Assembly: GCA_944325505.1 (NCBI GenBank)
Contig: CALVAJ010000001.1
Span: 1-64,000, forward strand
Length of the DNA stretch: 64,000 nucleotides
Source of the DNA: an uncultured Bacteroidales bacterium
GTDB lineage: Bacteria > Bacteroidota > Bacteroidia > Bacteroidales > UBA932
Direction of reading: 5' to 3'
Within the stretch, counting starts at the first letter, position 1, and each line of letters begins with the position of its first letter. Shown in pieces: positions 5,089 to 57,733 of this stretch. The position numbers were made by a program, and so were the translations under genes. The notes under the pieces were generated by a model. The model saw only the letters and a list, made by a program, of their open reading frames with translations. It made no database searches and had not been told where the DNA came from.

Positions 5089-5113
5089 ATGCCGGCAGGG
5101 AAAATTCCGGCGG

Positions 5114-6172: not shown

Positions 6173-6193
6173 TTTTCCGGCAGGGTAAATAAA

Positions 6194-6225: not shown

Positions 6226-6253
6226 TTTGTTATAACATTAATCCAAAATAACC

Positions 6254-7306
6254 ATGAGCATAGAAAAAGAACTCTGGGGCAAGTCCCCTTGCGGCAAGGA
6301 AATTTATCGTTATACATTGAAAAACGACAGCGGAGCCTACGTCCGGCTTTCAAGCGTGGGAGCAGGAATCGTTGAGGTGGTTGTCCCTGACAGGGACGGG
6401 AAACTGGCGGATGTCGCCCTCGGATATAAGGATCCTCTGAGCTATTTCGATGACGGCCCTTGTGCTGGGAAAGTCCCCGGCCGGTATGCCAACAGGATAG
6501 CAAAAGGCCGTTTTACCCTTGAGGGCAAAGAATATACGCTTCCGGTCAACAATGGTCCCAATCACCTGCACGGCGGACCCCAAGGGTTCCAGAATCAGGT
6601 ATGGGAGAGCCGCATACATGAAGACGGAGTCGAATTCATGTACTATTCCCAGGATGGGGAGATGGGGTACCCGGGTGCCCTGAAAGCCGTTGTCCGCTAC
6701 GAATGGAGCGAAGAAAACGAGTTGAGGCTCACCCTTACGGCTGAAACTGATGCCCCTACGGTGGTGAACCTTACCAACCACGCCTATTTCAATCTGAACG
6801 GGGAAGGGAGCGGAAGCGTCCTCGGGCACGAGCTCAGGCTGAATGCTTCCGAATATCTCCCTACGGATGATTCTCTCATTCCGGCAGGGGAAAGCGAGCC
6901 GGTTGCCGGAACACCTATGGATTTTGTTGTGGCAAAACCTCTCGGACGGGACATCAAGGCGGATTTTCCTGCACTGAAATACGGTAAGGGATATGACAAC
7001 TGCTGGGTAATCGACGGATACGAACCCGGACAGCTGCAGACGGCAGCAGAGCTTTATGCCCCTGAAAGCGGCCGCCTGCTGGAAGTAGTCACAACACAGC
7101 CCGGAGTGCAGGTCTACACCGGAAACTGGCTTGCCGGATGCCCTGAAGGCAAGTGCGGACGCAGCTATAACGACTATGACGGTGTAGCCGTCGAGTGCCA
7201 GCACTTCCCTGATTCTCCCAATCATCCTGACTATCCTTCCACAGTCCTCCGTCCGGGAGAGACTTTCGAAGAGGCGATAATCTTCGCTTTCAAGGTAAGA
7301 CAGTAA
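6254..7306 (+). CDS. galM: Cytoplasmic aldose 1-epimerase (galactose mutarotase)
   Basis: A 350-residue enzyme that interconverts the alpha and beta anomers of aldoses such as galactose, the entry step of the Leloir pathway. The fold is the galactose mutarotase beta-sandwich. Active-site residues are visible: the substrate-binding His in NHLHGG (H104/H106), the general acid H176 in NLTNHAYFN and the general base E314 in VECQHFPDSPNHP. Other family signatures are GRYANRI and the LPTD segment. There is no signal peptide, so it acts in the cytoplasm, unlike the lipoprotein paralog at 61564-62727. It is a single-gene transcript with its own consensus promoter and a downstream hairpin. Confidence 0.93.
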   Translation: MSIEKELWGKSPCGKEIYRYTLKNDSGAYVRLSSVGAGIVEVVVPDRDGKLADVALGYKDPLSYFDDGPCAGKVPGRYANRIAKGRFTLEGKEYTLPVNNGPNHLHGGPQGFQNQVWESRIHEDGVEFMYYSQDGEMGYPGALKAVVRYEWSEENELRLTLTAETDAPTVVNLTNHAYFNLNGEGSGSVLGHELRLNASEYLPTDDSLIPAGESEPVAGTPMDFVVAKPLGRDIKADFPALKYGKGYDNCWVIDGYEPGQLQTAAELYAPESGRLLEVVTTQPGVQVYTGNWLAGCPEGKCGRSYNDYDGVAVECQHFPDSPNHPDYPSTVLRPGETFEEAIIFAFKVRQ

Positions 7307-7395
7307 AACAAGAGAGGGCAACTCAAAAGGATTTTTCCCTTCGTGAGAAAATTGAGTATTTGAAACAAGACTCCATCAGGAGTACGGATAATAAA

Positions 7396-7423
7396 GGGGT
7401 GAGTCAGACTTTTGACCCACCCC
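7396..7423. terminator. Bidirectional terminator between galM and the EF-G paralog
   Basis: GGGGTG-A-GTCA, loop GACTTT, TGAC-C-CACCCC: a ten-pair stem with one mismatch. It is followed by GCTATTTTTC on the plus strand and by TTTATTATCC on the minus strand. It lies between the convergent galM and EF-G-like genes. The bases between galM and the hairpin (7307-7395) hold no gene I can see. Confidence 0.65.
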
Positions 7424-7448
7424 TGCTATTTTTCACTTGTCTGTCTGC

Positions 7449-9602: not shown

Positions 9603-9664
9603 GTGCTTTCTGTTTTGTTATTAATTACTGGTCTGCCGATACTTTCATTAAGTTAGCATCGAAG

Positions 9665-17073: not shown

Positions 17074-17121
17074 CAGTCCGCCTCCGTAAAACATTAAGTT
17101 AAGAAACAAAAGAAAGAAGCC

Positions 17122-18669
17122 ATGTCAGACAAGTTATACCCGGTAGGGATCCAGAATTTCGAGAGTCTGCGTAGAGACGGGTACTTTTATGTGGACAAGA
17201 CAGCCAAGATATATGAATTGGCAAGGACAGGACGGTATTATTTTCTGAGCCGTCCGCGAAGGTTCGGCAAAAGTCTTCTTGTGAGCACGCTGGAGGCATA
17301 TTTCCAGGGGAAGAAGGAATTGTTCGACGGGCTTGCGGTGCAGGAACTGGAAAAGGAGTGGAAACGTTATCCTATACTGCATCTTGACCTGAATACGGAG
17401 AAATATGACACTGCTGAAGCTCTGGATAAAAAACTGGAGCTGGCCCTAAGCGAATGGGAAAGCCTGTACGGTTCCAACCCTCATGAAAAATCCCTTGCGA
17501 CAAGATTCGAGGGGACGATCAAGCGTGCGGCGGCCAAGACCGGGGAGCGGGTAGTGATCCTGATAGACGAATACGACAAGCCGATGCTTCAGGCCATAGG
17601 CGATGAAGACAGGCAGCAGGCATATCGCGGCACTCTCAAGGCATTTTACGGGGCTTTGAAGTCACAGGACGGGAATATCAAGTTCGCCCTCCTGACGGGG
17701 GTGACGAAATTCGGGAAGGTGAGCGTGTTCAGCGACCTGAACAACCTGATGGACCTGTCCCGGGACCACCGCTATTTCGACATCTGCGGAATCAGCGGGG
17801 AGGAGCTCCTGCGTGACTTCAGCGACGACATCCGGGAACTTGCTGCAGCCAACGGACAGACCTTCGAGCAGGCCATAGGGCAGCTTAAAGAATACTATGA
17901 CGGCTACCATTTCAACCAGTACAGCCCAGGAATGTACAACCCGTTCAGTATCCTGAATACCTTCGCAAAGAAGACATACGGCAGCTACTGGTTCGAGACA
18001 GGGACACCTACCTATCTTGTGGAGCTATTGAAAAAGAGCGACTATGACCTGGAGGAGATGAGCCATGTGGAGACTGACGCCGATGTGCTGGACAGCATCT
18101 TCACGGACGACAACCCCATCCCGGTCATCTACCAGAGCGGTTACCTCACCATCAAAGGCTACGACAAGGAGTTCGGGATATACGAACTCGGGTTCCCGAA
18201 CAGGGAAGTAGAGGAAGGTTTCATGAAGTTCCTCCTGCCGTACTATTCCAGCGTGAGCAAGACCAGCTCGCCGTTCGAGATAAAGAAGTTCGTTCAGGAC
18301 GTTAAGCGGGGAGACATCGACGGGTTCATGGAGCGTCTGCAGTCGTTCCTTGCGGACTGCCCTTACGAGCTGGCGAAGGATATCGAGCTGCATTACCAGA
18401 ACGTCCTTTTCATCGTATTCCGCCTGGCAGGCCTGTACACTAAGGTGGAGTACCATACATCCAGAGGCAGGATAGACCTTGTTCTGCAGACCGACAGCTA
18501 TGTGTATGTCATGGAGTTCAAACTGGACGGCAGTGCGGAGCAGGCCCTGCAGCAGATAGAAGACAAGCAGTACGCCCTCCCGTTCGCAAAGGACTCCAGA
18601 AAAGTCTATACGATAGGAGTGAACTTCAGCAGCGAGACCCGGAACATCGAGCGGTGGATAGTGAAATGA
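17122..18669 (+). CDS. AAA-ATPase-like/PD-(D/E)XK nuclease-like protein, tandem copy 2
   Basis: Same length and architecture as copy 1: RRFGKS P-loop near residue 50, VVILIDEYDKPM Walker B, and the C-terminal GRIDLVL...EFK nuclease-like core. The first 50 residues are almost identical to copy 1 (SLRRDGYFYVDKTAKIYELARTG). Residues 90-200 belong instead to a second sequence type shared with copy 3 (DTAEALD, YGSNPHEKSLATRFEG, IGDEDRQQAYRG). Residues 205-300 are a type found only here (NLMDLSRDHRYFDICG, KEYYDGYHFNQYSPG). No promoter is seen in the spacer before it. Function unknown as for copy 1. Confidence 0.85.
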   Translation: MSDKLYPVGIQNFESLRRDGYFYVDKTAKIYELARTGRYYFLSRPRRFGKSLLVSTLEAYFQGKKELFDGLAVQELEKEWKRYPILHLDLNTEKYDTAEALDKKLELALSEWESLYGSNPHEKSLATRFEGTIKRAAAKTGERVVILIDEYDKPMLQAIGDEDRQQAYRGTLKAFYGALKSQDGNIKFALLTGVTKFGKVSVFSDLNNLMDLSRDHRYFDICGISGEELLRDFSDDIRELAAANGQTFEQAIGQLKEYYDGYHFNQYSPGMYNPFSILNTFAKKTYGSYWFETGTPTYLVELLKKSDYDLEEMSHVETDADVLDSIFTDDNPIPVIYQSGYLTIKGYDKEFGIYELGFPNREVEEGFMKFLLPYYSSVSKTSSPFEIKKFVQDVKRGDIDGFMERLQSFLADCPYELAKDIELHYQNVLFIVFRLAGLYTKVEYHTSRGRIDLVLQTDSYVYVMEFKLDGSAEQALQQIEDKQYALPFAKDSRKVYTIGVNFSSETRNIERWIVK

Positions 18670-18717
18670 CAGTCCGCCTCCGTAAAACATTAAGTTAAGA
18701 AACAAAAGAAAGAAGCC

Positions 18718-20265
18718 ATGTCAGACAAGTTATACCCGGTAGGGATCCAGAATTTCGAGAAAGTCCGCAGGGACGGATACTGTTACATTGACAAGACGGC
18801 TCTTATATATCAGCTTGTCAAGACGGGGAGCTATTATTTTCTGAGCCGTCCGCGGCGGTTCGGGAAAAGCCTTCTTGTGAGCACGCTGGAGGCATATTTC
18901 CAGGGAAAGAAGGAGCTGTTCGACGGGCTGGCAATGGAAGGCCTGGAGAAGGAATGGAAACGTTATCCTATCCTGCATCTTGACCTGAATACGGAGAAAT
19001 ATGACACTGCCGAAGCTCTGGATGCAAAACTGGAGCTGGCCCTAAGCGAATGGGAAAGCCTGTACGGGTCCAATCCACATGAAAAATCCCTTGCGACAAG
19101 ATTCGAGGGGACGATCAAGCGTGCGGCGGCCAAGACGGGGGAGCGGGTAGTGATCCTGATAGACGAGTACGACAAGCCGATGCTTCAGGCCATAGGAGAT
19201 GAAGACAGGCAGCAGGCATATCGCGGCACTCTCAAGGCATTTTACGGGGCTTTGAAGTCACAGGACGGGAATATCAAGTTCGCCCTCCTGACGGGGGTGA
19301 CGAAGTTCGGGAAGGTGAGCGTATTCAGCGACCTGAACAACCTGGAGGATCTGTCCAGAAATCCAGGCTACACCGATATCTGCGGAATCAGCGAAGAAGA
19401 ACTTCTCCGGGACTTCTCCGATGACATACATGAGCTTGCCTCTGCCAACGGGCAGACTTTCGAGCAGGCCTGCGACCAACTCAAAACCGACTACGACGGA
19501 TACCATTTCTGCCCGGATACTCCGGGAATGTACAATCCTTTCAGCATCCTCAACACTTTCAAGTCCAGAAGATACGGCAGCTACTGGTTCGAGACGGGGA
19601 CCCCGACTTATTTAGTCGAATTGCTGAAAAAGAGCGACTATGACCTTGAAGAAATGAGTCATGTGGAGACTGACGCCGATGTGCTGGACAGCATCTTCAC
19701 GGACGACAACCCCATCCCGGTCATCTACCAGAGCGGGTATCTGACAATAAAGGGATACGACAAAAGATTTGGAATATATACATTAGGGTTTCCGAACAGG
19801 GAGGTAGAGGAAGGCTTCATGAATTTCCTGCTTCCGTTCTATTCAGCTGTCAGCAAGACCCGGTCTCCGTTCGAGATAAAACGGTTCGTGACAGATGTGG
19901 AATCCGGTGACATCGACGGCTTCATGGAGCGGCTGCAGTCATTCCTTGCGGACTGCCCTTACGAACTGGCGAAAGACGTGGAACTGCATTACCAGAACGT
20001 CCTTTTCATCGTGTTCCGCCTGGCAGGCCTGTACACTAAGGTGGAGTACCATACCTCCAGAGGCAGGATAGACCTTGTACTGCAGACCGACAGCTATGTG
20101 TATGTGATGGAGTTCAAGCTGGACGGCAGCGCGGAGCAGGCCCTGCAGCAGATAGAAGACAAGCAGTACGCCCTCCCGTTCGCAAAGGACAGCCGTAAAG
20201 TCTACAGCATAGGTGTGAACTTCAGCAGCGAGACCCGGAACATCGAGCGGTGGATAGTGAAATAG
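18718..20265 (+). CDS. AAA-ATPase-like/PD-(D/E)XK nuclease-like protein, tandem copy 3 (mosaic)
   Basis: Full-length 515-residue copy with both motif sets intact. It is a mosaic. Residues 15-40 are unique in the array (KVRRDGYCYIDKTALIYQLVKTGSYYF). Residues about 85-200 follow copy 2, and the codons from 19324 to 20126 are identical to copy 1. It ends with TAG, whereas copies 1 and 2 end with TGA, and its stop lies two bases from the stop of the convergent Stealth gene. All reading frames are open, so every copy appears functional or recently so. Confidence 0.85.
   Translation: MSDKLYPVGIQNFEKVRRDGYCYIDKTALIYQLVKTGSYYFLSRPRRFGKSLLVSTLEAYFQGKKELFDGLAMEGLEKEWKRYPILHLDLNTEKYDTAEALDAKLELALSEWESLYGSNPHEKSLATRFEGTIKRAAAKTGERVVILIDEYDKPMLQAIGDEDRQQAYRGTLKAFYGALKSQDGNIKFALLTGVTKFGKVSVFSDLNNLEDLSRNPGYTDICGISEEELLRDFSDDIHELASANGQTFEQACDQLKTDYDGYHFCPDTPGMYNPFSILNTFKSRRYGSYWFETGTPTYLVELLKKSDYDLEEMSHVETDADVLDSIFTDDNPIPVIYQSGYLTIKGYDKRFGIYTLGFPNREVEEGFMNFLLPFYSAVSKTRSPFEIKRFVTDVESGDIDGFMERLQSFLADCPYELAKDVELHYQNVLFIVFRLAGLYTKVEYHTSRGRIDLVLQTDSYVYVMEFKLDGSAEQALQQIEDKQYALPFAKDSRKVYSIGVNFSSETRNIERWIVK
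19324..20126 (+). repeat. 803-base tract in copy 3 identical to copy 1
   Basis: Partner of the tract at 16132-16934. It covers most of the linker and nuclease-like domain (about residues 203-470). It ends just before the last 45 residues, where copy 3 again resembles copy 2 (QIEDKQYA instead of QIEEKQYA). Confidence 0.85.
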
Positions 20266-20267: not shown

Positions 20268-21260
20268 TCAGCCTTCAGAAGACTGTTTCTGCGACGCTTC
20301 AAGAGAAAGCCGGTTGCATATCCAGTTTATTGCCATTTCCTTGTCTTTTTCGGAGGCATAGCCTAAAGAATTGAAACAGCAGAAAGGAGCTTCGGATTCC
20401 CCGAACTCACGCAATTTTCGTCTCATGTACCCTTTTCTTTTCTTGGGTTTCAGATACAGGTCCTTTCCTTTTCTTGGCCGTACCGTACATTCTCCGGTGT
20501 CTTCCGCCAGAAGATAGAAAAGGGCCTGGGGATTGTATTGGAACGGTTCCCTGAATTTCGGTTTCATGTTCATTTCCATGATAGCCGGATTATTTCCATA
20601 AAATCTTTCAAGCGTACTTTTCCTTATAGCCAGTGGAATATGTCCGATGTACAGGAAATATCTTTTGTTCCCTGCTATTTTTGCGGCATTGACCATTGAA
20701 TCCTTGAATCCGGATATCTTGAATCCTTTCTTTCGCGGTTTCAGTATATGAAGCAGCCTGGCGAACAACGTGCTGAAACGGTAACCGTAGCACACCGCTT
20801 TGCCATCGAGAAAAAAATCTTCAGGAGAAGTCGGGGCGACAAGCAGGAAATCGTCATTCAGATAGATGAAATGCTCGCTCAGCCCTGGGATCCGGAACAA
20901 TACCGTTTCGATAGACCTCGCAGAAAAGACAGGCAGATATTTTTCGTACCCGCGATAGATTACCGTGTGGTCGACAATTTCTATTTCGGTGCTGCGTTCA
21001 GGAAAGTATTTGTCAAGAAAAGGTCCCAGGCATGGGTCCTGACCGTCTGTAACAATGAAGATTTTCCTGAGAAAAGGGGCGAATCTGAGCAGGGATGCGA
21101 TACAGTATTTTATCTCACCGCAGTTCTGGTACCGTATGTCGCCCCCTACTTCATCATTCATCAGCTGTGCTGCCGATTCGTATTTCAGCCGTTTTGATTT
21201 GTGGACAGGGTCGTCCCCGTCAACCCACGTTACCACTGCATCGATCGGATAGTCTGCCAT
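20268..21260 (-). CDS. Stealth-family sugar-phosphate transferase, copy A
   Basis: A 330-residue protein with the conserved regions of the Stealth family (capsular polysaccharide phosphotransferases related to GlcNAc-1-phosphotransferase). Region 1 is IDAVVTWVDGDDP at residues 5-17, and region 2 runs through IKYCIASLLRFAPFLRKIFIVTDGQDP. Further segments are IEIVDHTVIYR and the YLNDDFLL metal-binding motif. It probably transfers hexose-1-phosphate from a nucleotide sugar to a growing glycan in the cytoplasm. It is last in a minus-strand set with glf and a GT2, 36 bases after glf. A close paralog lies at 28123-29112. Donor and acceptor are unknown. Confidence 0.88.
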   Translation of the reverse strand: MADYPIDAVVTWVDGDDPVHKSKRLKYESAAQLMNDEVGGDIRYQNCGEIKYCIASLLRFAPFLRKIFIVTDGQDPCLGPFLDKYFPERSTEIEIVDHTVIYRGYEKYLPVFSARSIETVLFRIPGLSEHFIYLNDDFLLVAPTSPEDFFLDGKAVCYGYRFSTLFARLLHILKPRKKGFKISGFKDSMVNAAKIAGNKRYFLYIGHIPLAIRKSTLERFYGNNPAIMEMNMKPKFREPFQYNPQALFYLLAEDTGECTVRPRKGKDLYLKPKKRKGYMRRKLREFGESEAPFCCFNSLGYASEKDKEMAINWICNRLSLEASQKQSSEG

Positions 21261-28122: not shown

Positions 28123-29112
28123 TTAAAATGTGGCTGGGGTCTGTTCGATGGAAAGCCGTCTGCGTATCCACCTTGTGGCCGTTTCAATGTCTTTTTCCGA
28201 TGCGTATCCGAGGGAATTGAAACAGCAGAAAAGGGCTGTCTTTGACTTGTCGAATCTCCGCAGTTTTCTTTCCATGTATCCCGGTCTGTCTTTCGGCTTT
28301 ATATACAGGTCTTTCCCTTTTCTCGGCTTTACCGTGCATGCCCCGCCTGCAGTTCCGAGCAGATAGCACAGTTCCTGAGGGTTGTACTGGAAAGGCTCGC
28401 GGAAACGCGGCCTCATGTTCTTTTCCATTGCTTCCGGATGCTCCGTATAGAATTTTTCGAAAACACTGCGTTTCTGTGCCAGAGGGATATGTCCGATATA
28501 GAGGAAATGCCTTTTTTCCCCTGCCACATCGGCGGCATTGATCATGGCATCCTTGAATCCGAAAATCCTGACGCCTCCCCTTTTGGGCTTTACCGCCCTG
28601 AGCAGTTTTCCGAAATGCAGGCTGAACTTCGATGCATAGCATATGGCCTTGCCGTCCTGGAAAAAGTCCTCACGGGTAACGGGGGATATCAGCATGAAAT
28701 CATCGTTCAGGTAGATATAGTGCTCGCTCAGACCGGGTATGCGCCATAGCATGGTCTCTATAGAGAGGGAATTGAATACCGGGAGACAGTCTTCATAGCC
28801 TCTGTATATGACCTTGTGGTCGATGATTTCCACTTCGGTTTCCGTTTCAGGGAAGAACCTTCCGATAAAATCCCCCAGCTGCGGGTCCTGCCCGTCCGTG
28901 ACAATGAAGATTTTTCTGATGAAAGGAGCGAATCTCAGAAGAGAAGCTACGCAATAATAGATTTCCCCTATGCTCGAGAACCGGATCTCTCCTCCTACTT
29001 CGTCATTCTGTGTCTGGTCCTTCGTGGCGAATCTGAGCCGTTTCTCCCTGTGGGCCGGGTCATCTCCGTCCACCCATGCAATAACGGCATCTATCGGGTA
29101 TGTGTCAGTCAT
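28123..29112 (-). CDS. Stealth-family sugar-phosphate transferase, copy B
   Basis: A 329-residue paralog of the protein at 20268-21260, sharing the same length and conserved regions: IDAVIAWVDGDDPAHREKRL, the FAPFIRKIFIVTDGQDP block, VEIIDHKVIYRGYEDCLP, YLNDDFMLISP and the C-terminal FCCFNSLGYASEKD. The two copies differ along their whole length, so the duplication is old and they may have different donors or acceptors. It lies in the minus-strand operon between a glycosyltransferase (18 bases) and the unassigned transferase. The Stealth family is known for phosphodiester-linked capsules and for structures that mimic host-type glycans. Confidence 0.88.
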   Translation of the reverse strand: MTDTYPIDAVIAWVDGDDPAHREKRLRFATKDQTQNDEVGGEIRFSSIGEIYYCVASLLRFAPFIRKIFIVTDGQDPQLGDFIGRFFPETETEVEIIDHKVIYRGYEDCLPVFNSLSIETMLWRIPGLSEHYIYLNDDFMLISPVTREDFFQDGKAICYASKFSLHFGKLLRAVKPKRGGVRIFGFKDAMINAADVAGEKRHFLYIGHIPLAQKRSVFEKFYTEHPEAMEKNMRPRFREPFQYNPQELCYLLGTAGGACTVKPRKGKDLYIKPKDRPGYMERKLRRFDKSKTALFCCFNSLGYASEKDIETATRWIRRRLSIEQTPATF

Positions 29113-48619: not shown

Positions 48620-48650
48620 TTTGTTTTCACATTAATTATTCCTATTTTTG
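48620..48650 (+). promoter_or_regulatory. Consensus promoter for the DUF4492-cydAB run
   Basis: TTTG at 48620-48623, 19 bases, TATTTTTG at 48643-48650; exact match. It would start transcription near 48657, ahead of the DUF4492 start at 48690. No later gene up to 57733 shows an equally good promoter. Confidence 0.8.
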
Positions 48651-48689
48651 AAAGATTTTATATGCCGCAGTCAAGGGCGGATATCCGCA

Positions 48690-48923
48690 ATGCCGAGGGA
48701 AAAGCATAACATATTCCTTTCCATCTGGAATTTTTATGCGGACGGATTCAGGAATATGACCTGGGGGCGTCCTCTCTGGGGGCTTATAATATTGAAGCTG
48801 ATTGTCCTTTTCGCCATATTGCGCGTGTTTTTCTTCCAGCCGGTCCTTTCGGGAAAGACGGATCGGGAGAAAAGTGATTTTGTGGGGGAGAGGCTGACGG
48901 AACATCTGGATGACAATGTCTAA
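48690..48923 (+). CDS. DUF4492 small membrane protein, cytochrome bd associated
   Basis: A 77-residue protein with one transmembrane helix (about 28-49). The opening NIFLSIWNFYADGFRNMTWGRPLWGLIILKL matches DUF4492, a family found just before cydAB in Bacteroidetes and some Campylobacterota. It probably stabilises or assembles the oxidase, like CydX in proteobacteria, but this is inferred from position. The frame extends to 48648, inside the -7 element of the promoter, so the start must be later; 48690 fits. Eleven bases from cydA. Confidence 0.88.
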   Translation: MPREKHNIFLSIWNFYADGFRNMTWGRPLWGLIILKLIVLFAILRVFFFQPVLSGKTDREKSDFVGERLTEHLDDNV

Positions 48924-48934
48924 ACTGAATATAT

Positions 48935-50437
48935 ATGGTAGAAAACGCTTTGATTGACTGGTCAAGGGCCCAGTTCGCCCTTACGGCATGCTATCATTGG
49001 ATATTCGTACCGCTTACTCTCGGGCTGTCCGTGATAATGGCTGTCATGGAGAGTATCTATGTAGCCCGGAAAGATGAATTCTGGAAAAAGGCTGCAAAGT
49101 TCTGGATGAAGCTTTTCGCCATCAATTTCGCTGTGGGCATTGCTACGGGTATTATCCTTGAATTCGAATTCGGTACCAACTGGAGCAATTACTCCTGGTT
49201 TGTAGGAGATATATTCGGCGCCCCGCTGGCTATAGAAGGCATACTTGCCTTCTTCATGGAGGCGACGTTCTTTGCCGTGATGTTTTTCGGCTGGAACAAG
49301 GTAAGCCGGAAGTTCCACCTCGCATCCACATGGCTGACATGTATCGGGGCATCCGTTTCCGCTCTGTGGATACTTGTGGCGAATGCATGGATGCAGCATC
49401 CTGTAGGCATGGAATTCAATCCCGATACCGTACGTAACGAAATGACGGATTTCTGGGCGGTGGCATTGAACCCTGTTGCCGTGAGCAAGTTCTTCCATTC
49501 GGTGCTCAGCGGATGGATGACAGGGGCGGTATTCGTCATCGGGGTAAGCTGCTGGTATCTGCTCAGGGGCAGGGAAACGAGGTTTGCAAAAGCCAGTATC
49601 AGGGTCGCTTCCATCGTAGGGATAGCAGGGACCCTGGGCGTAATGTTTTCGGGAGACAGTTCGGCCATACATGTGGCCAGGTACCAGCCTATGAAACTGG
49701 CTGCGGCGGAAGGCCTTGAAGACGGGGGAGAACGTGCTCCGTTCTCGATTGTCCCGGGAGTCGAAATCCCCGGGATGCTCTCAATCCTTGCAACCCATGA
49801 CATAGACGGCTATGTGCCCGGGATAAATGACATTCTTGACGGATACACCGACTCCGACGGAAATCGGATCCTGTCCGCGGACGAGAAAAAGGAGAGAGGT
49901 GATCTTGCACTCGCTGCATTCAAGGCTTACCGGGAAAACAGGGATACTGACCCGCAGGCTGCCGCCCAGGCACGTAAGGTGCTGGAAGAGAATGTGGAAT
50001 ATTTCGGTTACGGGTATATACAAGACAAGGAGGATCTGGTTCCTTCGGTCGGGATGGTCTACTGGCCTTTCAGGATAATGGTCGGCCTGGGATGTTTCCT
50101 CCTGCTGCTTATGGTTGCCGTGCTTTGGGCGGAGCGTAAGGACAGGATAGCGGGGCTTGCCTGGCTGCAGCGGGTGGCACTGTTCTCCATCCCTCTGGTC
50201 TATATTGCAGGCCAGGCAGGATGGATAGTGGCGGAGGTCGGACGCCAGCCATGGGCGATACAGGATCTTCTGCCGGTCAATGCCGCCATATCCAGTCTTA
50301 GCGTAGGTGCGGTAAGGACTACGTTCATCGTATTTGTCGCGGTATTCACATTATTCCTGGCCATTGAACTGCGGATACTGCTTAAAGCCATCAGGAAAGG
50401 TCCTGCGGTAGACGAGCCGGAAGTGTCAGACAGATAA
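48935..50437 (+). CDS. cydA: Cytochrome bd ubiquinol/menaquinol oxidase subunit I
   Basis: A 500-residue membrane subunit that carries the three haems and the quinol site of cytochrome bd, which reduces oxygen to water and protects anaerobes from traces of it. RAQFALTACYH21WIFVPLTLG gives the high-spin haem ligand, and ATGIILEFEFGTNWSNYSWFVGDIFGAPLA is the conserved second-helix region. GRQPWAIQDLLP is the signature late in the chain. The quinol loop (about 250-360) is of moderate length. Second gene of the promoter at 48620; 16 bases before cydB. Confidence 0.96.
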   Translation: MVENALIDWSRAQFALTACYHWIFVPLTLGLSVIMAVMESIYVARKDEFWKKAAKFWMKLFAINFAVGIATGIILEFEFGTNWSNYSWFVGDIFGAPLAIEGILAFFMEATFFAVMFFGWNKVSRKFHLASTWLTCIGASVSALWILVANAWMQHPVGMEFNPDTVRNEMTDFWAVALNPVAVSKFFHSVLSGWMTGAVFVIGVSCWYLLRGRETRFAKASIRVASIVGIAGTLGVMFSGDSSAIHVARYQPMKLAAAEGLEDGGERAPFSIVPGVEIPGMLSILATHDIDGYVPGINDILDGYTDSDGNRILSADEKKERGDLALAAFKAYRENRDTDPQAAAQARKVLEENVEYFGYGYIQDKEDLVPSVGMVYWPFRIMVGLGCFLLLLMVAVLWAERKDRIAGLAWLQRVALFSIPLVYIAGQAGWIVAEVGRQPWAIQDLLPVNAAISSLSVGAVRTTFIVFVAVFTLFLAIELRILLKAIRKGPAVDEPEVSDR

Positions 50438-50453
50438 AAAGGAGGAGGTCATC

Positions 50454-51599
50454 ATGTTCGGATATGAATTTTTACAGCAGTACTGGTGGTTCATAGTTTC
50501 GCTTCTGGGCGGACTTCTTGTCTTCCTTCTTTTTGTCCAGGGTGGCAATGCCCTGATATTTTCCGCAGGCAGGAGTGAAGAAGAGAAGCAGCTGATAGTG
50601 AACTCTACAGGCAGGAAGTGGGAACTTACTTTCACGACTCTGGTCACATTCGGCGGTGCGTTCTTCGCTTCGTTTCCGCTTTTCTACAGTACGAGTTTCG
50701 GAGGAGCTTACTGGCTCTGGGTGCTGATTCTCATCAGTTTCGTATTCCAGGCCGTTTCCTACGAGTTCCAGACCAGGGCCGGGAATCTTCTGGGACGCAA
50801 CACGTTCCGTGTTTTCCTGGTGATAAACGGGTTTATGGGGCCTTTCCTCATAGGGATGGCAGTGGCCACATTCTTTACGGGATCGGATTTCATAGTCGAC
50901 AAGGATGCGGTTGGGGATTCCCTTTCCCCGGTTATCAGCACATGGGGAAGCGGATGGCACGGGCTGGAGGCTTTCGGCAACATATGGAACATATGTTTCG
51001 GGCTGGCGGTCTTTTTCCTCGCTCTCGTCCTCGGTTCGCTTTACATGATCAATAATATCGAAGAAGAAAACATCGTATTGAAGCTGCGTCTGCGTCTGTG
51101 GATGTTCGCATTCTGTTTCCTTATACTGTTCGTGGCTTTCCTGCTGCATATCTTTGTTTCGCCCGGCTTTGCCGTGGATGCGGACGGGACTGTCTTCATG
51201 GAGAAATCGAAATATCTGCATAATTTCATACAGATGCCGGCGGTTCTTGCCGTTTTTCTGGCTGGTGTGATTCTTGTATTGTATGGCATAGTCAAGACCC
51301 TGGCTTCCAAAAGATACCGCAGGGGGATATGGTTTACGGGTCCTGGTACCGTTCTGGCGGTACTGGGGCTTCTGCTTGTGGCGGGCTATAACGGTACGGC
51401 TTACTATCCGTCGACCGCCGACCTGCAGAGCTCCCTTACGATAGCCAACAGCTGTTCGAGCCGCTTTACCTTGAATACGATGACGATAGTCTCGTTTATA
51501 ATACCGTTTGTGATTGCATATATAGCCTACGCCTGGAGGGCGATGGACCGCAAGTCACTGACACCGGAAGAACTGAAAGATACGGAAGATAAATATTAG
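50454..51599 (+). CDS. cydB: Cytochrome bd oxidase subunit II
   Basis: A 381-residue polytopic partner of CydA. Eight or nine hydrophobic segments are visible. YWWFIVSLLGGLLVFLLFVQGGN, FPLFYSTSFGGAYWLW, SYEFQTRAGN and WHGLEAFGNIWNICFGLAVFFLALVLGSLYMIN are the typical CydB segments of Bacteroidetes. The C-terminal SLTIANSCSSRFTLNTMTIVSFIIPFV matches the SS-TL-TM motif near the end of the family. 17 bases separate it from the next gene, so co-transcription is likely. Confidence 0.95.
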   Translation: MFGYEFLQQYWWFIVSLLGGLLVFLLFVQGGNALIFSAGRSEEEKQLIVNSTGRKWELTFTTLVTFGGAFFASFPLFYSTSFGGAYWLWVLILISFVFQAVSYEFQTRAGNLLGRNTFRVFLVINGFMGPFLIGMAVATFFTGSDFIVDKDAVGDSLSPVISTWGSGWHGLEAFGNIWNICFGLAVFFLALVLGSLYMINNIEEENIVLKLRLRLWMFAFCFLILFVAFLLHIFVSPGFAVDADGTVFMEKSKYLHNFIQMPAVLAVFLAGVILVLYGIVKTLASKRYRRGIWFTGPGTVLAVLGLLLVAGYNGTAYYPSTADLQSSLTIANSCSSRFTLNTMTIVSFIIPFVIAYIAYAWRAMDRKSLTPEELKDTEDKY

Positions 51600-51616
51600 A
51601 AAGCAAGCTATAGAAA

Positions 51617-52459
51617 ATGAAAAGATTTGCATTGATCCTGGCGGTCGCCCTGACTGTGCTTCCGCAGGCGGCTTCGGCACGGAAAACGGCCGGCCCCGAT
51701 ACGCTGAGCGTCATCTCCTTTAACATACGGATGGGAGAAGCCAATGACGGCACCAACTCATGGCAGTACAGATACCCTGCCACCATATTGATGCTCAGGG
51801 ACAAGCAGCCTGACATATTCGGACTCCAGGAAGCATTTGACTATCAGGTGCTGCTCGTTAAGGAGAATATGAGGGACTACAAATGCGTCGGAGTCGGAAG
51901 GGAAGACGGGAAGCATAAGGGCGAGCATATGTCCATTTTCTATAATAAGAAAAAGGTTTCCCTGCAGAAATGGGGGACGTTCTGGCTTTCGGAAACTCCC
52001 GGGAAACCTTCTATGGGCTGGGATGCCGCCTGCATCAGGACCGCTACCTGGGCATTGATGAAGGACAAGAGGTCAGGGCACAGGTTCTATTATGTCAACA
52101 CCCATCTCGACCATGTAGGCAAAGAGGCTCAGAAAAAGGGTCTTGCCCTGATTGTCGACAAGATAAAGGAGATGAATCCGGAGGGCTACCCTATGGTCCT
52201 TACAGGGGATTTCAATGTGGAAAGCAACGATCCGGTCCTCGAGGACCTGAACAGGATCATGAGAAGCGCACGGTCCTCGGCAGAAAGGACCGACCGGCTC
52301 AACTCATATAACGGCTGGGGCAAAAGCAGTTCGGTCATAGACTACATCTATTATTCCGGCTTCTCGTCCTGCCCGAAATTCGAGACGATACAGAAAAAGT
52401 ACGGTGAATTCCCGTTCATATCGGACCACTACCCGATCAAGGCCGTACTTGTTTTCTGA
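51617..52459 (+). CDS. Secreted endonuclease/exonuclease/phosphatase-fold hydrolase
   Basis: A 280-residue exported enzyme (signal peptide 1-21, ending AASA) of the EEP superfamily. The metal and catalytic residues are in SFNIRMGE, GLQEAFDYQ, YYVNTHLDHVG, LTGDFNV, VIDYIYYSG and FISDHYPIKAVLVF, all intact. Bacteroidetes members without other domains are usually phosphodiesterases or phosphatases of sugars, lipids or nucleic acids; the substrate is not readable. It follows cydB by 17 bases and precedes the cytochrome fusion by 35, within the same co-directional run, so it may simply ride in this operon. Confidence 0.88.
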   Translation: MKRFALILAVALTVLPQAASARKTAGPDTLSVISFNIRMGEANDGTNSWQYRYPATILMLRDKQPDIFGLQEAFDYQVLLVKENMRDYKCVGVGREDGKHKGEHMSIFYNKKKVSLQKWGTFWLSETPGKPSMGWDAACIRTATWALMKDKRSGHRFYYVNTHLDHVGKEAQKKGLALIVDKIKEMNPEGYPMVLTGDFNVESNDPVLEDLNRIMRSARSSAERTDRLNSYNGWGKSSSVIDYIYYSGFSSCPKFETIQKKYGEFPFISDHYPIKAVLVF

Positions 52460-52494: not shown

Positions 52495-54033
52495 ATGCCG
52501 AAATCTCAGAACAGGAAAAGACTGTTTTTAGCTGCACTTGCCGGACTGGTTGCCGGCTTTTCCCTGATGATAGTACTGAACTCTCTGTATGTCAAGAGTT
52601 CTTCGAACGAGTCCTGCATGTCATGCCATTCCCATCCTGATTCCGATGCGAGCTGGAAGCAGTCGATGCATTATAACAACGGCAGCGGGACCGCGACGGA
52701 CTGTGCCGACTGTCATCTGCCGCCGAAAGGGTCGGTCAGCCATTTCATGGCCAAGGCCAGGACAGGAATGAAAGACGTGTGGTCCTATATCACAAAAGAC
52801 ACGGAAAAGATCGACTGGGAAAGCAAGAGCCAGTTGGAGTATGCCGTGAATATCGTATATAACGAATCATGCGAGGCCTGCCATGTGAACCTTTTCCCTG
52901 AAGGTATCACCGATGACGGTGTGACCGCGCATCTCTACTATGAGGAGAATGCTGAAAAACTGAATCTGCAGTGCATAAGCTGCCATCTGGATGCAGGGCA
53001 TTACAACCCCAACTATCAGCACAAGAAAATGACCGGTGTTCCTGATTCGGGCAGCAAAGAGGTCTTTGCCGAAGCGACGCCGGTGACTTCGTTCGGGAAT
53101 TTCACGGAGAAAATACCGGGAACCTCCGCTTCGATAAACATGATAGCGGTTCCGGGAGGGACGTTTGTTATGGGAAGTCCGGAGAAGGAGCCTTTCCGCC
53201 GCAGCGACGAGTCTCCGCAGCGCAGCGTTACCGTATCCTCTTTCTTTATGGGAGAGACCGAGGTTACATGGGACCAGTTCTGGGCTTTCTACGGGGAGAC
53301 CATGTCCGAGGGCAGGATACCTCCGGAGGTCGTGTATATGAACAATTCCCGTGATGACGTGGACGCCATTAGCGGCCCGACCCCTCCTTTCGGATATCCG
53401 GACCAGGGATGGGGTATGGCTGACCGGCCGGTAATCACTCTGACCCACTATTCTGCCGAGACTTTCTGCAAGTGGCTCTCCAAAAAGACGGGCAAGAAGT
53501 ACCGCCTTCCGACCGAGGCGGAATGGGAATATGCCGCCAGGGGCGGGACATCTACCCCTTATTTCTTCGAGGGAAGTCCGAAAAAGTATTCCAACCGCGG
53601 ATTCTGGAGAGGGATTTTCGGGGCCGATACGACAGTGATAAACAGCTATGCCGTATATGCCAACAACAGCGGCAGCCGGACCAAAGAGCCTTCGAAAGTG
53701 AAGGCCAATCCGTTCGGACTCAAGAATATGCTCGGTAATGTCATGGAGTACTGCTCCGACTGGTATGCCGAGGATGCATATTCACGGCTGCAGGACGGGG
53801 CGGTGGATCCGAAAGGACCGGAGTCCGGAACCGAACACGTTGTCAGGGGAGGCCTTTACACCGATGATGCGGCGGACCTGAGATGCGCCGCCAGGTCGCA
53901 TACGGAACATGAAGCCTGGCTGAAGACCGACCCGCAGAATCCGAAGAGCATATGGTGGTATTCCGATATCAAGGGTATAGGATTCAGGGTGGTCTGCGAA
54001 GTGCCGGAAGGTGTGGAAGGATCTTTACAGTAG
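52495..54033 (+). CDS. NapC/NrfH-type tetraheme cytochrome c fused to a SUMF1 (FGE-fold) domain
   Basis: A 512-residue protein in a single unbroken frame. An N-terminal membrane anchor (residues 10-30) is followed by four haem-c sites: C41-MS-CH45, C70-AD-CH74, C126-EA-CH130 and C160-IS-CH164. This is the layout of NrfH/NapC quinol dehydrogenases, which pass electrons from menaquinol to periplasmic enzymes. After a short linker, residues 213-505 are a formylglycine-generating-enzyme/PvdO-type domain (VPGGTFVMGSPE, ETEVTWDQFWAF, YRLPTEAEWEYAARGG, GNVMEYCSDWY, VVRGGLYTDDAADLRCAARS, GIGFRVV). The FGE redox cysteine pair is absent. I know of no described protein of this type. Upstream of two secreted enzymes and CcsBA. 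Confidence 0.88.
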   Translation: MPKSQNRKRLFLAALAGLVAGFSLMIVLNSLYVKSSSNESCMSCHSHPDSDASWKQSMHYNNGSGTATDCADCHLPPKGSVSHFMAKARTGMKDVWSYITKDTEKIDWESKSQLEYAVNIVYNESCEACHVNLFPEGITDDGVTAHLYYEENAEKLNLQCISCHLDAGHYNPNYQHKKMTGVPDSGSKEVFAEATPVTSFGNFTEKIPGTSASINMIAVPGGTFVMGSPEKEPFRRSDESPQRSVTVSSFFMGETEVTWDQFWAFYGETMSEGRIPPEVVYMNNSRDDVDAISGPTPPFGYPDQGWGMADRPVITLTHYSAETFCKWLSKKTGKKYRLPTEAEWEYAARGGTSTPYFFEGSPKKYSNRGFWRGIFGADTTVINSYAVYANNSGSRTKEPSKVKANPFGLKNMLGNVMEYCSDWYAEDAYSRLQDGAVDPKGPESGTEHVVRGGLYTDDAADLRCAARSHTEHEAWLKTDPQNPKSIWWYSDIKGIGFRVVCEVPEGVEGSLQ

Positions 54034-54080: not shown

Positions 54081-55433
54081 ATGAGCGAAAAAAATATCAG
54101 CAGGAAAGACTTCCTGAAGTATTCTGCGGCTCTCGGTGTCTCAGGCATCCTGGGCACCTCACTTCTGTCCTCATGCGGAGGCAGGAAAAATTCCTATGTG
54201 CCGCTGAGGCAGCCGGAAGAATATTATGTGCCTGAACTTCCGGACAAGGCAATCGCGGGGAAAGAGCTGAAAGTAGGAGTAGTAGGTTGCGGCGGACGCG
54301 GCTCGGGCGCGGTGCTCGACCTGCTTGCGGCGGCCGACGGCATCAAGGTGACTGCCCTCGGGGATACCTTCAGTGACAGACTGGAAGGACTGAGAAAAGA
54401 CCTTAAGAACAACCACGGGCAGGACGTTCCTGCCGGGAACTGCTTCGTCGGATTCGATGCGTACAAGAAGGTGATCGATTCCGGAATCGACATGGTGATT
54501 CTGACAACACCTCCGGTATTCAGGCCGGAACATTTCAAATACGCTACTGAAAAGGGCGTTCATACATTCATGGAGAAGCCTGTAGCCGTAGACCCTAAGG
54601 GATGCCGTTCGGTCATTGCGACCGCCCGCCAGGCGAAGGCCAAGGGTCTGTGTGTGGTAGCAGGAACCCAGCGTCATCATGAGAGGCCTTATGTGGAGGC
54701 TTTCCGGAAAATACAGGAAGGATATATAGGGGAGATTACAGGCGGTAACGTCTACTGGAACCAGGGTATGCTCTGGTACCGCGAGCGTCAGGCAGGCTGG
54801 AGCGATATGGAATGGATGATCCGTGACTGGGTGAACTGGAAATGGCTTTCGGGAGACCATATTATCGAGCAGCATGTCCATAATATCGACGTATTTCTGT
54901 GGATGTCAGGGCTCAAGCCTGTAAAGGCCACTGCTTTCGGCTCCCGCCAGCGCCGTATTACCGGTGACCAGTATGACAATTTCAGCGTCGATTTCGAGTT
55001 TGAAAACGGAATCCATATGCACAGCATGTGCCGTCAGATAGACGGATGCAGCACCAATATAGGCGAATACATCCAGGGGACGAAAGGTTCCTGGAACAGC
55101 TACAATCACGAGATCAAGGACCTCGAAGGGAATGTCGTATGGAAGTATGACGAAGAAGCTTCGAATGCTGCCTTCAAACAGCAGAATCCATATGTGCTCG
55201 AGCATGTAGACTGGGTGAACCATATCCGTAAGGGAGAAGCCCATGATGAAGCCGAGGCCTGCGCCATATCTACAATGGCAGGCGTAATGGGGCGTGAAGC
55301 CGCCTATACCGGCAAAACCGTCAGCTGGGATGAAATCAGCGCATCGGCAATGAACTATATGCCTGAGAAACTGGTGATGGGAAAAATGGATATGTCCAAA
55401 TATACGGTTCCGGTTCCTGGAACAGGTAAATAA
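54081..55433 (+). CDS. Secreted Gfo/Idh/MocA-family oxidoreductase lipoprotein
   Basis: A 450-residue protein with a Tat-like signal (S7-R8-K-D-F-L-K) ending in the lipobox LLSSC32, so it is probably exported folded with its cofactor and lipid-anchored. The dinucleotide motif G66-V-V-G-C-G-G-R-G74, the MEKPVAVDPKG signature and the WLSGDHIIEQHVHNIDVFLW catalytic His region are typical of glucose-fructose oxidoreductase relatives. The second arginine of the Tat pair is lysine here. Its likely substrate is a sugar or sugar derivative oxidised in the periplasm. Nine bases separate it from a similarly exported TIM-barrel gene, implying paired reactions. Confidence 0.88.
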   Translation: MSEKNISRKDFLKYSAALGVSGILGTSLLSSCGGRKNSYVPLRQPEEYYVPELPDKAIAGKELKVGVVGCGGRGSGAVLDLLAAADGIKVTALGDTFSDRLEGLRKDLKNNHGQDVPAGNCFVGFDAYKKVIDSGIDMVILTTPPVFRPEHFKYATEKGVHTFMEKPVAVDPKGCRSVIATARQAKAKGLCVVAGTQRHHERPYVEAFRKIQEGYIGEITGGNVYWNQGMLWYRERQAGWSDMEWMIRDWVNWKWLSGDHIIEQHVHNIDVFLWMSGLKPVKATAFGSRQRRITGDQYDNFSVDFEFENGIHMHSMCRQIDGCSTNIGEYIQGTKGSWNSYNHEIKDLEGNVVWKYDEEASNAAFKQQNPYVLEHVDWVNHIRKGEAHDEAEACAISTMAGVMGREAAYTGKTVSWDEISASAMNYMPEKLVMGKMDMSKYTVPVPGTGK

Positions 55434-55442: not shown

Positions 55443-56354
55443 ATGGACAGAAGAAGTTTTTTGGGCAGGACTCTGGCAGGAGCGGCGGCGGTCACATTGG
55501 GAGGACTGCCGCTTGGAATTGCCTCAGCCTGCGCTCCCAAGAAAGAGACAGAAAAGGCGGCGGAGCTGAAACTGTCGTTCCAGGAGGGGATTGCTCCGGG
55601 GAATACGCTGGCTGAAAAGCTGGATTATATGGAGAGTCTCGGAGTAGTCGGATTTGAACCTGGAGGGGGTAATCTTCCAGGCCGCGTGGATGAGATCCGT
55701 AAGGCTCTCAGCGGCCGCAACATAAAGGTGTCTGCCATATGCGCCGGATTCAGGGGCTTTATCCTCGCCGAGGATCCGAAAGTAAGGGCCGAATTCGATA
55801 CTACAATGCGTGAAATCATAGCTGCGGCAGGAGAGATAGGGTCGACAGGTGTGATAATGGTACCGGCATTCAACGGCCAGAAGCCTTGTATGCCGCATAC
55901 TCTTGAAACGCGCGAATACCTTACGCAGCAGCTTCATGATCTTGGAGAATATGCCCTCAAATGCGGAACGACGGTCATTCTCGAACCCCTGAACAGAGGA
56001 GAAGCATTCTATCTCCGTCAGGTAGCGGATGCGGCAGCCATCTGCAGGGATTCAAAGAGTGCCGGAGTGAAATGCATGGGCGATTTCTGGCATATGCAGG
56101 AAGAGACTTCGGACTATGCCGCTTTCATGGCAGCAGGGGCCGAATATCTGCAGCATGTACATGTGGCCAGCCGGGCCCGCCGTATAATGCCGGGAGAGGA
56201 CGGCGAGGCGGATAACTATATAGACGGTATGAGAGCCTTGAAGGAACTCGGCTATGACAAATACATAAGTTTCGAGTGCGGCACCGACGGTGACCGTACA
56301 GTGACTGTCCCTGCCGCGGTGGCTCTGCTCCGTGAGCAGTGGGAGAAAGCATAG
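55443..56354 (+). CDS. Secreted sugar-phosphate isomerase/epimerase-type TIM barrel
   Basis: A 303-residue protein with a full Tat signal (M-D-R3-R4-S-F-L-G) and a lipobox ending at C30. The mature part is an AP-endonuclease-2/xylose-isomerase-like TIM barrel. Candidate metal ligands lie in VILEPLNRGEAFY, KCMGDFWHMQEE, YLQHVHVASR and ISFECGTDGD. Paired with the Gfo/Idh gene it probably isomerises, epimerises or eliminates a keto-sugar made by that enzyme, a pairing known from 3-keto-glycoside metabolism; this is inference. It follows directly in the operon and overlaps or nearly touches the CcsBA frame. Confidence 0.86.
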   Translation: MDRRSFLGRTLAGAAAVTLGGLPLGIASACAPKKETEKAAELKLSFQEGIAPGNTLAEKLDYMESLGVVGFEPGGGNLPGRVDEIRKALSGRNIKVSAICAGFRGFILAEDPKVRAEFDTTMREIIAAAGEIGSTGVIMVPAFNGQKPCMPHTLETREYLTQQLHDLGEYALKCGTTVILEPLNRGEAFYLRQVADAAAICRDSKSAGVKCMGDFWHMQEETSDYAAFMAAGAEYLQHVHVASRARRIMPGEDGEADNYIDGMRALKELGYDKYISFECGTDGDRTVTVPAAVALLREQWEKA

Positions 56355-56383
56355 TCGGAGTGGCTTTCAGGTGGAATTATAAA

Positions 56384-57733
56384 ATGGCTTTTTTGCGCTG
56401 TGCCCTGCTGCTTGCGGCAGGCACGGCGGTGCAGATTGCTGCAGGCGATGTGCCTGCAGCTTTTTTGCGTTATCCGTGGACTGCGGTCCTTGCCGTGAAT
56501 TATCTTTATCTGTTGGTGCTGGCTTATGTCTTCAGCGGCAGATACGAGTGGCTCAGGACACTGTGGGATGACAAGGCCTGTATATCGTCGCTTGCTTCCG
56601 TATTGCTGGTTGTCATTATTTCAGGGTTCAGCCCTATAACATCCTCATGGCCTTTTGTCCTGATACTCCTGTATTTTACTACTGTTCTTGGTGTCAGGAC
56701 GACAGCTGAAATTGCAGGGATGAAACTTCTGTTGAGGAATACTTTGCCCGTATCGGAGAGGCTTCGCCATGCGGCCAGGACCGCCATGCATGCCGGCGTA
56801 TTTGTTCTCTTGTGGGCCGGCATTTTCGGAAGCGGTGACAAGCTGCGATATAAAACGGTTGTTCCTCAGGGAGTGACGGTCGTTATGGCGTCAGATGCTT
56901 CAGGAAACCGCATTGCCCTTCCGTTTTCCATTACCCTGCACAGTTTTTCTGCCCCTCCTGAAGCCGACAGGTATCTTTCCGAGATAACGCTGACCGGAAA
57001 GGGAGGGTATCAGAAGGATTATGATATTGAGGTGAACCGTCCTGCCGGATACGGAGCCTGGAGGATATACCAGTCGGGGTATGACAGTTCGGGACACTGG
57101 GGGACGGCCAGCGTGCTTGAATGCGTGAAGGACCCATGGTGGCCGGTGGTCTGTGCGGCCTTGTGGACAGTGCTGGCTTCGGCGGTACTGATGGTCTGTG
57201 CAAGGCTGAGTCCCAAGTGGATCCTTCTGACTGCCATCCTTCTCGCAGCTGCATGCACGGGCGTATATTTCATTGAGATTTACGGCAAGACGCTTGTGCC
57301 GGCACTCCGAAGCGCCTGGTTTGTCCCTCATGTGGCTGCATATATGGTAGCGTATTCAGTGCTTGGAGCGGCAGCTCTTGCCGCGCTTTATCTGTGGCTG
57401 CGGCCTTCGCATGAAGAACCGTCAGAGCGCAGTATGCGGTTGTGCGACGCCCTTATCGGAACAGGCTCGGCATTCCTGTCCGCCGGAATGATGATGGGAG
57501 CCCTGTGGGCAAAGCAGGCATGGGGAGACTGGTGGACCTGGGATCCGAAAGAGACCTGGGCGGCAGCTACCTGGGCCGGCTATCTTCTGTATATTCATCT
57601 TAGAGGGACACGCCGGATAGATTACCATACGGCCTTTGCCCTCATATTGTTCTCGTTCCTGTTGATCCAGATGTGCTGGTACGGCGTCAACTATCTTCCT
57701 TCCGCACGGGGAGCCAGCCTGCACCTGTATTGA
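56384..57733 (+). CDS. CcsB-CcsA (ResB/ResC) cytochrome c haem-attachment fusion protein
   Basis: A 449-residue system II cytochrome c maturation protein. The first part has four hydrophobic helices and a periplasmic ResB-like region (QGVTVVMASDASGNRIALPFSITLHSF, VNRPAGYGAWRIYQSGYD). The rest is CcsA with the haem-handling WWD motif WGDWWTWDPKETWAAATW and flanking histidines (FVPHVAAYM, DYHTAFALI). It delivers haem to apocytochromes in the periplasm. A GTG start at 56339 overlapping the previous stop is possible; I chose the ATG at 56384. In Bacteroidetes such genes follow nrfHA; here the client is the tetraheme fusion encoded upstream. Confidence 0.9.
   Translation: MAFLRCALLLAAGTAVQIAAGDVPAAFLRYPWTAVLAVNYLYLLVLAYVFSGRYEWLRTLWDDKACISSLASVLLVVIISGFSPITSSWPFVLILLYFTTVLGVRTTAEIAGMKLLLRNTLPVSERLRHAARTAMHAGVFVLLWAGIFGSGDKLRYKTVVPQGVTVVMASDASGNRIALPFSITLHSFSAPPEADRYLSEITLTGKGGYQKDYDIEVNRPAGYGAWRIYQSGYDSSGHWGTASVLECVKDPWWPVVCAALWTVLASAVLMVCARLSPKWILLTAILLAAACTGVYFIEIYGKTLVPALRSAWFVPHVAAYMVAYSVLGAAALAALYLWLRPSHEEPSERSMRLCDALIGTGSAFLSAGMMMGALWAKQAWGDWWTWDPKETWAAATWAGYLLYIHLRGTRRIDYHTAFALILFSFLLIQMCWYGVNYLPSARGASLHLY

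Follow-up and report, generated by a model that had tools for sequence, protein, structure and literature searches.

Among described cytochromes, the NapC/NrfH proteins come closest to the haem-bearing part of the protein considered here. The accessible text of PMC10654088 treats them as a quinol dehydrogenase family and gives Met49 and Asp89 as essential for menaquinol oxidation, and that of PMC4683180 says that NrfH interacts with the quinone pool and that its Lys82 and Asp89 are conserved. On the side of sugar chemistry, BT2158 of B. thetaiotaomicron is a periplasmic glycoside 3-dehydrogenase (PMC11300592, excerpts), and deletions of BT2157 and BT2158 were without effect on growth on raffinose-family sugars (PMC11501099, excerpts). 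A. tumefaciens has a 3-keto-glycoside eliminase and a Gfo enzyme, its GlycDH being a flavoenzyme (PMC10628242, excerpts), and YcjR is a 3-keto-D-glucoside isomerase (PMC11543891, excerpts). The literature searched gave no description of the fusion reported below, including any of NrfH and SUMF1 together; a report in print may still exist.

The window, by which we mean the whole 64,000-nt stretch of Bacteroidales DNA that was analysed, holds a gene in which a tetraheme cytochrome domain of the NapC/NrfH type is joined to a SUMF1 domain (FGE fold). The features of this gene are the following.

52495–54033, plus strand: fused NapC/NrfH-type tetraheme cytochrome and SUMF1 (FGE-fold) protein, 512 aa, from Pfam and relatives
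52519–52578, plus strand: N-terminal membrane-anchor helix, residues about 9–28, from hydropathy (helix 5–34 in the structural model)
52615–52635, plus strand: haem-1 motif C41-x-x-C44-H45-x-H47 (CxxCH at 41–45)
52702–52716, plus strand: haem-2 motif CADCH, residues 70–74
52753–52776, plus strand: K87 and D94, seven residues apart, aligned with Lys82/Asp89 of NrfH
52870–52884, plus strand: haem-3 motif CEACH, residues 126–130
52972–52986, plus strand: haem-4 motif CISCH, residues 160–164
53023–53109, plus strand: interdomain linker, about residues 177–205
53137–53910, plus strand: SUMF1/FGE-fold domain (PF03781), residues 215–472, from Pfam and fold matches to PvdO and FGE
53860–53883, plus strand: TDDAADLR, residues 456–463, at the region of the FGE catalytic cysteines, neither of which is present; the region was placed from what we take to be the catalytic residues of FGE
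53929–53958, plus strand: subfamily signature DPQ-x-P-x-S-x-WW, residues 479–488, common to fused and stand-alone members

The open reading frame runs through 512 codons without an internal stop, and Pfam places Cytochrom_NNT at residues 7–173 (E 3.5e-25) and FGE-sulfatase at residues 215–472 (E 7.4e-43). In what follows, we use the term 81 rows for the window protein together with the best 80 of 299 relatives. All of these rows have four CxxCH motifs and a hydrophobic N-terminal stretch (mean hydropathy of 1.88 or higher over the best 19 residues), and the distance from the fourth CxxCH to an [IVL]PG[TGS] motif is 41–44 residues in 74 rows and 45–66 residues in the other 7. The predicted structure of the fusion has a mean pLDDT of 71, with several stretches below 50 (residues 165–185 among them), values above 90 from about residue 191, and low values at 477–492, which is too weak a model for placing a pocket that faces haem 4, as the earlier note had proposed to look for. 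The earlier note had described one unbroken frame joining a tetraheme, quinone-type domain to SUMF1, and the frame, the Pfam matches and the four motifs confirm this; the conserved protein architecture is real.

The best 80 of the 299 relatives, from a scan of genome contigs, match over both domains without exception (80/80, 66–94% identity). Their labels are Bacteroidales or subgroups of it, except for two that read only Bacteroidetes and Bacteroidia, and include Cryptobacteroides, Alistipes, Rikenellaceae, Bacteroidaceae, Prevotella and Phocaeicola abscessus. Of 295 genomes from the same order, 38 carry the full-length fused gene (the copies in G309 and G425 have one internal stop). Among 149 genomes from the same family the number is 27, and in four of these (G663, G699, G710 and G639) the listed or only copy has an internal stop; in one family genome beyond these, G610, the match to the fusion is confined to a fragment at a contig end. 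A phylum-wide draw gave the full fusion in 1 of 296 genomes, which is the window's own. The fused gene is thus widespread but patchy, in that some genomes of the same genus rated 98–100% complete do not have it. Candidates for separate NrfH and SUMF1 genes in G526 and G448 were rejected, as every half-gene stops at a contig end. The co-occurrence of the two domains, which the earlier note had proposed to look for, therefore recurs in many Bacteroidales, and its concern that the domains might be found only apart in relatives, as with a local fusion or a sequencing error at about 53050–53130, does not hold against these counts. We see practically no chance that the joining is a local or assembly artefact without functional meaning: the search found nothing in its favour, and the fused relatives, the 38 order genomes and their grouping in one clade (below) all speak against it.

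The 29 best matches of a phylum search outside the window's genome cover the SUMF1 part only. The open frames of such stand-alone SUMF1 genes are 317–440 aa long, with one exception that is a read-through of 1367; a SUMF1 domain apparently inside a 793-aa frame (L112) was likewise rejected as a larger protein, being a read-through upstream of a start with a signal-like sequence. A tree of 33 fused rows (16 of the 81 close ones and 17 from 20 diverged loci), 29 stand-alone rows and 12 other SUMF1 rows places all 33 fused rows on one side of a branch (support 97/99), and the fused and stand-alone rows together against the 12 others (support 100/100). A single joining event would fit this tree, with the haem domain either acquired by this line or lost in the others; both directions are compatible because fused and stand-alone rows form sister groups.

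With respect to the haem domain, PF03264 lies above its cut-off in the window protein (89.2 versus 24.1 bits) and was found in all 44 members scanned. In the alignment to D. vulgaris NrfH (2j7a, E 1.8e-6), K87 and D94 correspond to its Lys/Asp pair, each being present in 81/81 rows, and H47 replaces the methionine of the NrfH motif CxxCHxM, again in every row (CxxCHxH, 81/81). The NrfH equivalog model TIGR03153 (cut-off 134.2) is not reached, the scores being 68.4 bits for the N-terminal part and 64.2 bits for the whole protein, and the host genome (92% complete) gave no match to NrfA (PF02335). This genome has one NapC/NrfH match and one FGE-sulfatase match, and both are the fused gene. A census of CxxCH patterns in it gave 146 forward and 146 reverse matches versus 82 and 80 in a control, which is not a count of cytochromes.

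The earlier note had suggested a menaquinol-linked enzyme, but a flow of electrons out of menaquinol, as in NrfH, now looks doubtful: the haem-1 Met is His in all 81 rows, and the partner gene described below resembles those of sugar dehydrogenases. The exchange of Met for His is expected to lower the potential of haem 1, which favours delivery to menaquinone, and sugar dehydrogenases are expected to feed the quinone pool. By midpoint potentials, the oxidation of a sugar by menaquinone is downhill, and the opposite direction, from menaquinol to a keto-sugar, is uphill. We therefore regard as improbable a reverse flow in which menaquinol would reduce the haems and the downstream Gfo/Idh protein would act as a periplasmic keto-sugar reductase, with keto-sugars as respiratory acceptors. 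Such a flow would agree with the treatment of NapC/NrfH as a quinol dehydrogenase family in the accessible text of PMC10654088, and with the A. tumefaciens Gfo enzyme that excerpts of PMC10628242 say reduces 3-keto-glucose, but the methionine that the former source gives as essential is the very residue exchanged throughout the 81 rows.

The SUMF1 domain departs from FGE at the residues that give the family its name. Both FGE catalytic cysteines are absent from it, and no metal or cofactor site was identified in the domain. Comparison of 37 SUMF1 rows, of which 8 are fused and 29 stand-alone, shows 48 nearly invariant positions, including those of DPQxPxSxWW. The best fold matches are PvdO (5hha, E 1.4e-15) and then FGE, and the NCBIfam models for GldK and PvdO give 107.3 bits versus a cut-off of 350 and 88.6 bits versus 500, respectively. 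The suggestion that SUMF1 takes the reductase's place as an enzyme thus loses ground, with the cysteines missing and no cofactor site found, although the domain may have some other activity. PvdO is believed to be a redox enzyme, and the SUMF1 domain might, like it, be a redox enzyme itself that exchanges electrons with the haems, leaving the Gfo/Idh protein to handle a substrate or product. The PvdO fold match and the nearly invariant positions are consistent with this, but the PvdO score far below cut-off, the absent cysteines and the lack of an identified site argue against it, as do PorK/GldK, which we take to show that the fold can be structural; overall, we give such an enzyme a low probability.

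Flavinylation was considered as a general feature of these loci and rejected, the motif not being constant and ApbE being absent at fused loci. The segment DAISGPT (residues 290–296) of the fused protein resembles an ApbE target motif, but has Pro for Ala (the rule in the accessible part of PMC8238504 being [S/T]GA[S/T]), and 8 of the 17 diverged fused proteins do not match a pattern of this type. ApbE was found at 0/80 close and 0/20 diverged fused loci, with one homologue elsewhere in the host genome, and at 7/20 long stand-alone loci (L116, L118, L121, L128, L129, L131 and L133; Pfam-checked in 4 of the 7), six of which also hold Gfo/Idh. The motif D..[ST][GSA][APG][ST] occurs in none of the 7 SUMF1 and 6 Gfo/Idh segments of the ApbE loci, although one Gfo/Idh (L128) has a bare SGAS without the Asp; nor was a flavinylation motif found in the open frames kept at 8 loci, a selection that hides genes under longer antisense frames.

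The genes around the fusion are as follows.

48935–52459, plus strand: cydA and cydB (bd oxidase) and an endonuclease/exonuclease/phosphatase-family (EEP) gene, upstream and co-directional
54081–55433, plus strand: Gfo/Idh dehydrogenase gene (Pfam), with a Tat-like R[RK] signal (RK here) and a lipobox
55443–56354, plus strand: AP_endonuc_2 TIM barrel (Pfam), with an RR signal and a lipobox, a relative of 3-keto-D-glucoside 4-epimerase
56339–57733, plus strand: ResB/CcsA-type cytochrome c assembly protein, GTG start as called, with a 16-nt overlap with the previous gene

The Gfo/Idh gene is a near-constant companion. By tblastn, 79 of the 80 close loci have a homologue as the next downstream gene, in the same orientation as the fusion, the exception (L046) ending at a contig end. 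Twenty diverged fused loci were taken, of which L171 and L172 are cut; of the 18 with a 3' flank, 16 have a homologue in that position, and L158 and L162 lack one. The pairing extends to SUMF1 genes without the haem domain: among 29 stand-alone loci, 26 have a Gfo/Idh homologue no more than about 1.5 kb away, in 25 of them on the same strand and downstream within 4 kb, and none was found at L087, L088 and L090 and in the longer stretches of those genomes (L116, L117 and L119). Counts were made by tblastn because long antisense frames overlie the Gfo/Idh genes in L102, L110 and L112. Two controls of other SUMF1 proteins with like flanks gave 0/20 and 0/20 at a laxer cut-off, the first drawn for 19 of its 20 loci from one family (f18), with two loci lacking part of the flank, and the second spread over 15 families (18 genomes). 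Fisher tests of 26/29 give p 6e-11 versus either control and 5e-16 versus both pooled, uncorrected for kinship. The comparison of neighbourhoods thus bears out the idea that SUMF1 is a platform for the oxidoreductases next door, to the extent that Gfo/Idh accompanies this SUMF1 subfamily whether fused or not. The gene pairing is strong and new, and on this genomic evidence the two proteins may be in contact.

All 80 Gfo/Idh rows have a lipobox and match a lax Tat-like pattern, R[RK]; the motif is RR in 44 of them and RK in 36, including the window's protein. EKP (165–167) and most Rossmann glycines are invariant, and the structural model has a mean pLDDT of 86.7. The best PDB match has E 8e-9 and none reaches 1e-10, so there is no close characterised relative; the nearest folds, with no clear winner, are inositol dehydrogenases, GH109 (6t2b), an aldose-aldose oxidoreductase, GFOR (1rye), RgNanOx and a glucuronide-3-dehydrogenase. 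Other Gfo/Idh enzymes such as GH109 and GFOR work without an acceptor, being redox-neutral. The enzyme here could be of that kind, with SUMF1 helping to dock or assemble it and the haem domain serving only as an anchor or in a separate sensing or protective role. The matches to GH109 and GFOR, though two among many, and the existence of the SUMF1–Gfo/Idh pair without a haem domain in other Bacteroidota are compatible with this, but conservation of all four CxxCH motifs, K87 and D94 throughout the 81 rows, together with cytochrome assembly genes at 56/80 loci, would make for a costly anchor, and we consider the idea unlikely.

Cytochrome-like genes are scarce where SUMF1 stands alone, CxxCH frames of any kind being found in 4 of 20 long stand-alone loci and none of them having four CxxCH. 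From this scarcity, the primitive role of the pair may have been docking or maturation, with the haem domain coming later. At L116 and L117, which are without Gfo/Idh by tblastn, the stand-alone SUMF1 gene lies beside CxxCH-bearing genes, those at L116 being a YceI-family gene and PSCyt1/PSD1-type proteins.

The gaps between the fused gene and Gfo/Idh (47 nt) and between Gfo/Idh and the TIM barrel (9 nt) are short, and the next junction is the 16-nt overlap, so the fused gene through ResB/CcsA is likely one operon. The TIM barrel matches 3kws (putative sugar isomerase, E 2.5e-127) and 6wn6 (3-keto-D-glucoside 4-epimerase, E 3.7e-22), the latter of which we take to be YcjR; its residues E181, D214, H240 and E278, presumably metal ligands, are nearly invariant. 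It lies downstream on the same strand within 4 kb in 75/80 close loci, and by tblastn occurs in 4/20 diverged fused and 3/20 long stand-alone loci (8/20 and 10/20, respectively, by weaker blastp matches). A CcsBA homologue is found at 56/80 close loci and 0/20 diverged fused loci, and within the family 25 of the 28 genomes that have the fused gene also have CcsA, versus 58 of the 121 that lack the fused gene (p 4e-5). A Ccs system dedicated to the fused cytochrome was rejected, given those 58 fusion-less genomes and a second CcsA in the host. This second assembly gene (L196, G000:C4:93000-105000, 3383–8561) has genes for a DHOR di-haem protein and an imelysin as neighbours.

Upstream in the window, a DUF4492 gene is followed by cydA, cydB and EEP directly before the fusion operon (48648–52459). 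The gaps are short here, and cydA, cydB and EEP were found in only 6/80 of the relatives' loci. Elsewhere in the window there are three tandem, very similar 515-aa open frames (15526–20265, plus strand), which look to us like AAA-ATPase/PD-(D/E)XK-type proteins, and, in a glycosyltransferase region, two similar proteins (20268–21260 and 28123–29112, minus strand) that presumably resemble Stealth-type sugar-phosphate transferases.

The host genome has 8 Gfo/Idh matches and 8 matches to PF06439 (3-keto-disaccharide hydrolase) in 6 open frames, two of them weak. One cluster (L200, G000:C10:56000-68000, 4829–9638) combines two Gfo/Idh genes with a 3-keto-disaccharide hydrolase and an AP_endonuc_2 gene, and is likely a 3-keto-glycoside pathway; it resembles what we take to be the gene content of BT2156–BT2160 in B. 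thetaiotaomicron. With this cluster and the PF06439 and Gfo/Idh sets, the host appears to have the genes for keto-glycoside chemistry in the periplasm.

The reading we favour, though at somewhat less than even confidence, is that the fusion is a membrane-bound electron-transfer adaptor, in which SUMF1 docks an exported Gfo/Idh sugar dehydrogenase and the haems deliver electrons to menaquinone. The SUMF1-fold domain, without FGE chemistry, would bind the neighbouring Gfo/Idh protein, and as an arm on the linker would hold it near the haems. The Tat-like signal and lipobox of the Gfo/Idh protein make it probable that it folds and binds NAD(P) before export, which would cut it off from the cytoplasmic NADH pool. 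To judge by its relatives, it would oxidise a sugar or glycoside, plausibly at C3 (substrate and position both being guesses), and the TIM-barrel protein might isomerise or cleave the keto-sugar. The trapped NAD(P)H would then be re-oxidised by the tethered four-haem domain, matured by Ccs proteins, and the haems would pass electrons to menaquinone near the conserved Lys/Asp pair, with the bd oxidase in this lineage, or another quinol oxidant, completing the chain. The step from Gfo/Idh to the first haem is missing from this proposed chain, since the analysis identified nothing, flavin or otherwise, that would turn a hydride transfer into one-electron steps. Further points weigh against the adaptor: the haem-1 Met of NrfH is absent; Gfo/Idh is missing at fused loci L158 and L162 and at stand-alone loci L087, L088 and L090; the Gfo/Idh protein has no close characterised relative, and others of its family are redox-neutral; its Tat motif is RK rather than RR in the window and in 36/80 rows; a cytochrome gene is not a regular neighbour of the stand-alone pairs, so that electron transfer may not be the general role of the pair; and at diverged fused loci Ccs (0/20) and the TIM barrel (4/20) fall away.

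A wider and more tentative proposal, which we hold as possible, is that the SUMF1 arm is a dedicated dock for an NAD(P)-trapped periplasmic Gfo/Idh enzyme, that SUMF1 and Gfo/Idh are an old pair across the Bacteroidota which the haem domain joined once, and that anaerobic gut Bacteroidales in this way respire periplasmic sugars. An exported NAD(P) enzyme stands off the cytoplasmic NADH pool, and a dedicated quinone-linked partner, if true, would explain where its electrons go in the species that have the fused gene. It would also be a respiratory entry point new to the literature searched, and would give a partner-module role to a SUMF1-fold subfamily without its name-giving catalytic cysteines.

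Set against known systems, the locus shares with the periplasmic 3-keto-glycoside systems (BT2156–BT2160, LacABC of C. crescentus, and GlycDH-OGE-HYD-Gfo; PMC11300592, PMC11501099, PMC9007349 and PMC10628242) exported or membrane-linked sugar 3-dehydrogenases and sets of Gfo and TIM-barrel proteins, whereas the accessible text of these sources mentions no tetraheme–SUMF1 protein and GlycDH is a flavoenzyme. With FGE/SUMF1 it has in common the fold and the RLPTEAEWE core, but both catalytic cysteines are replaced and the DPQxPxSxWW tail is distinct; PorK/GldK and PvdO are alike in fold, but the domain scores far below both curated cut-offs. NrfH (2j7a/2vr0) and the NapC/NirT family are alike in one N-terminal helix, four CxxCH motifs, the Lys/Asp pair and PF03264. 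Compared with NrfH, the fusion falls below the TIGR03153 cut-off in a host genome without an NrfA match, and it carries CxxCHxH at haem 1, a C-terminal SUMF1 domain and a Gfo/Idh neighbour.
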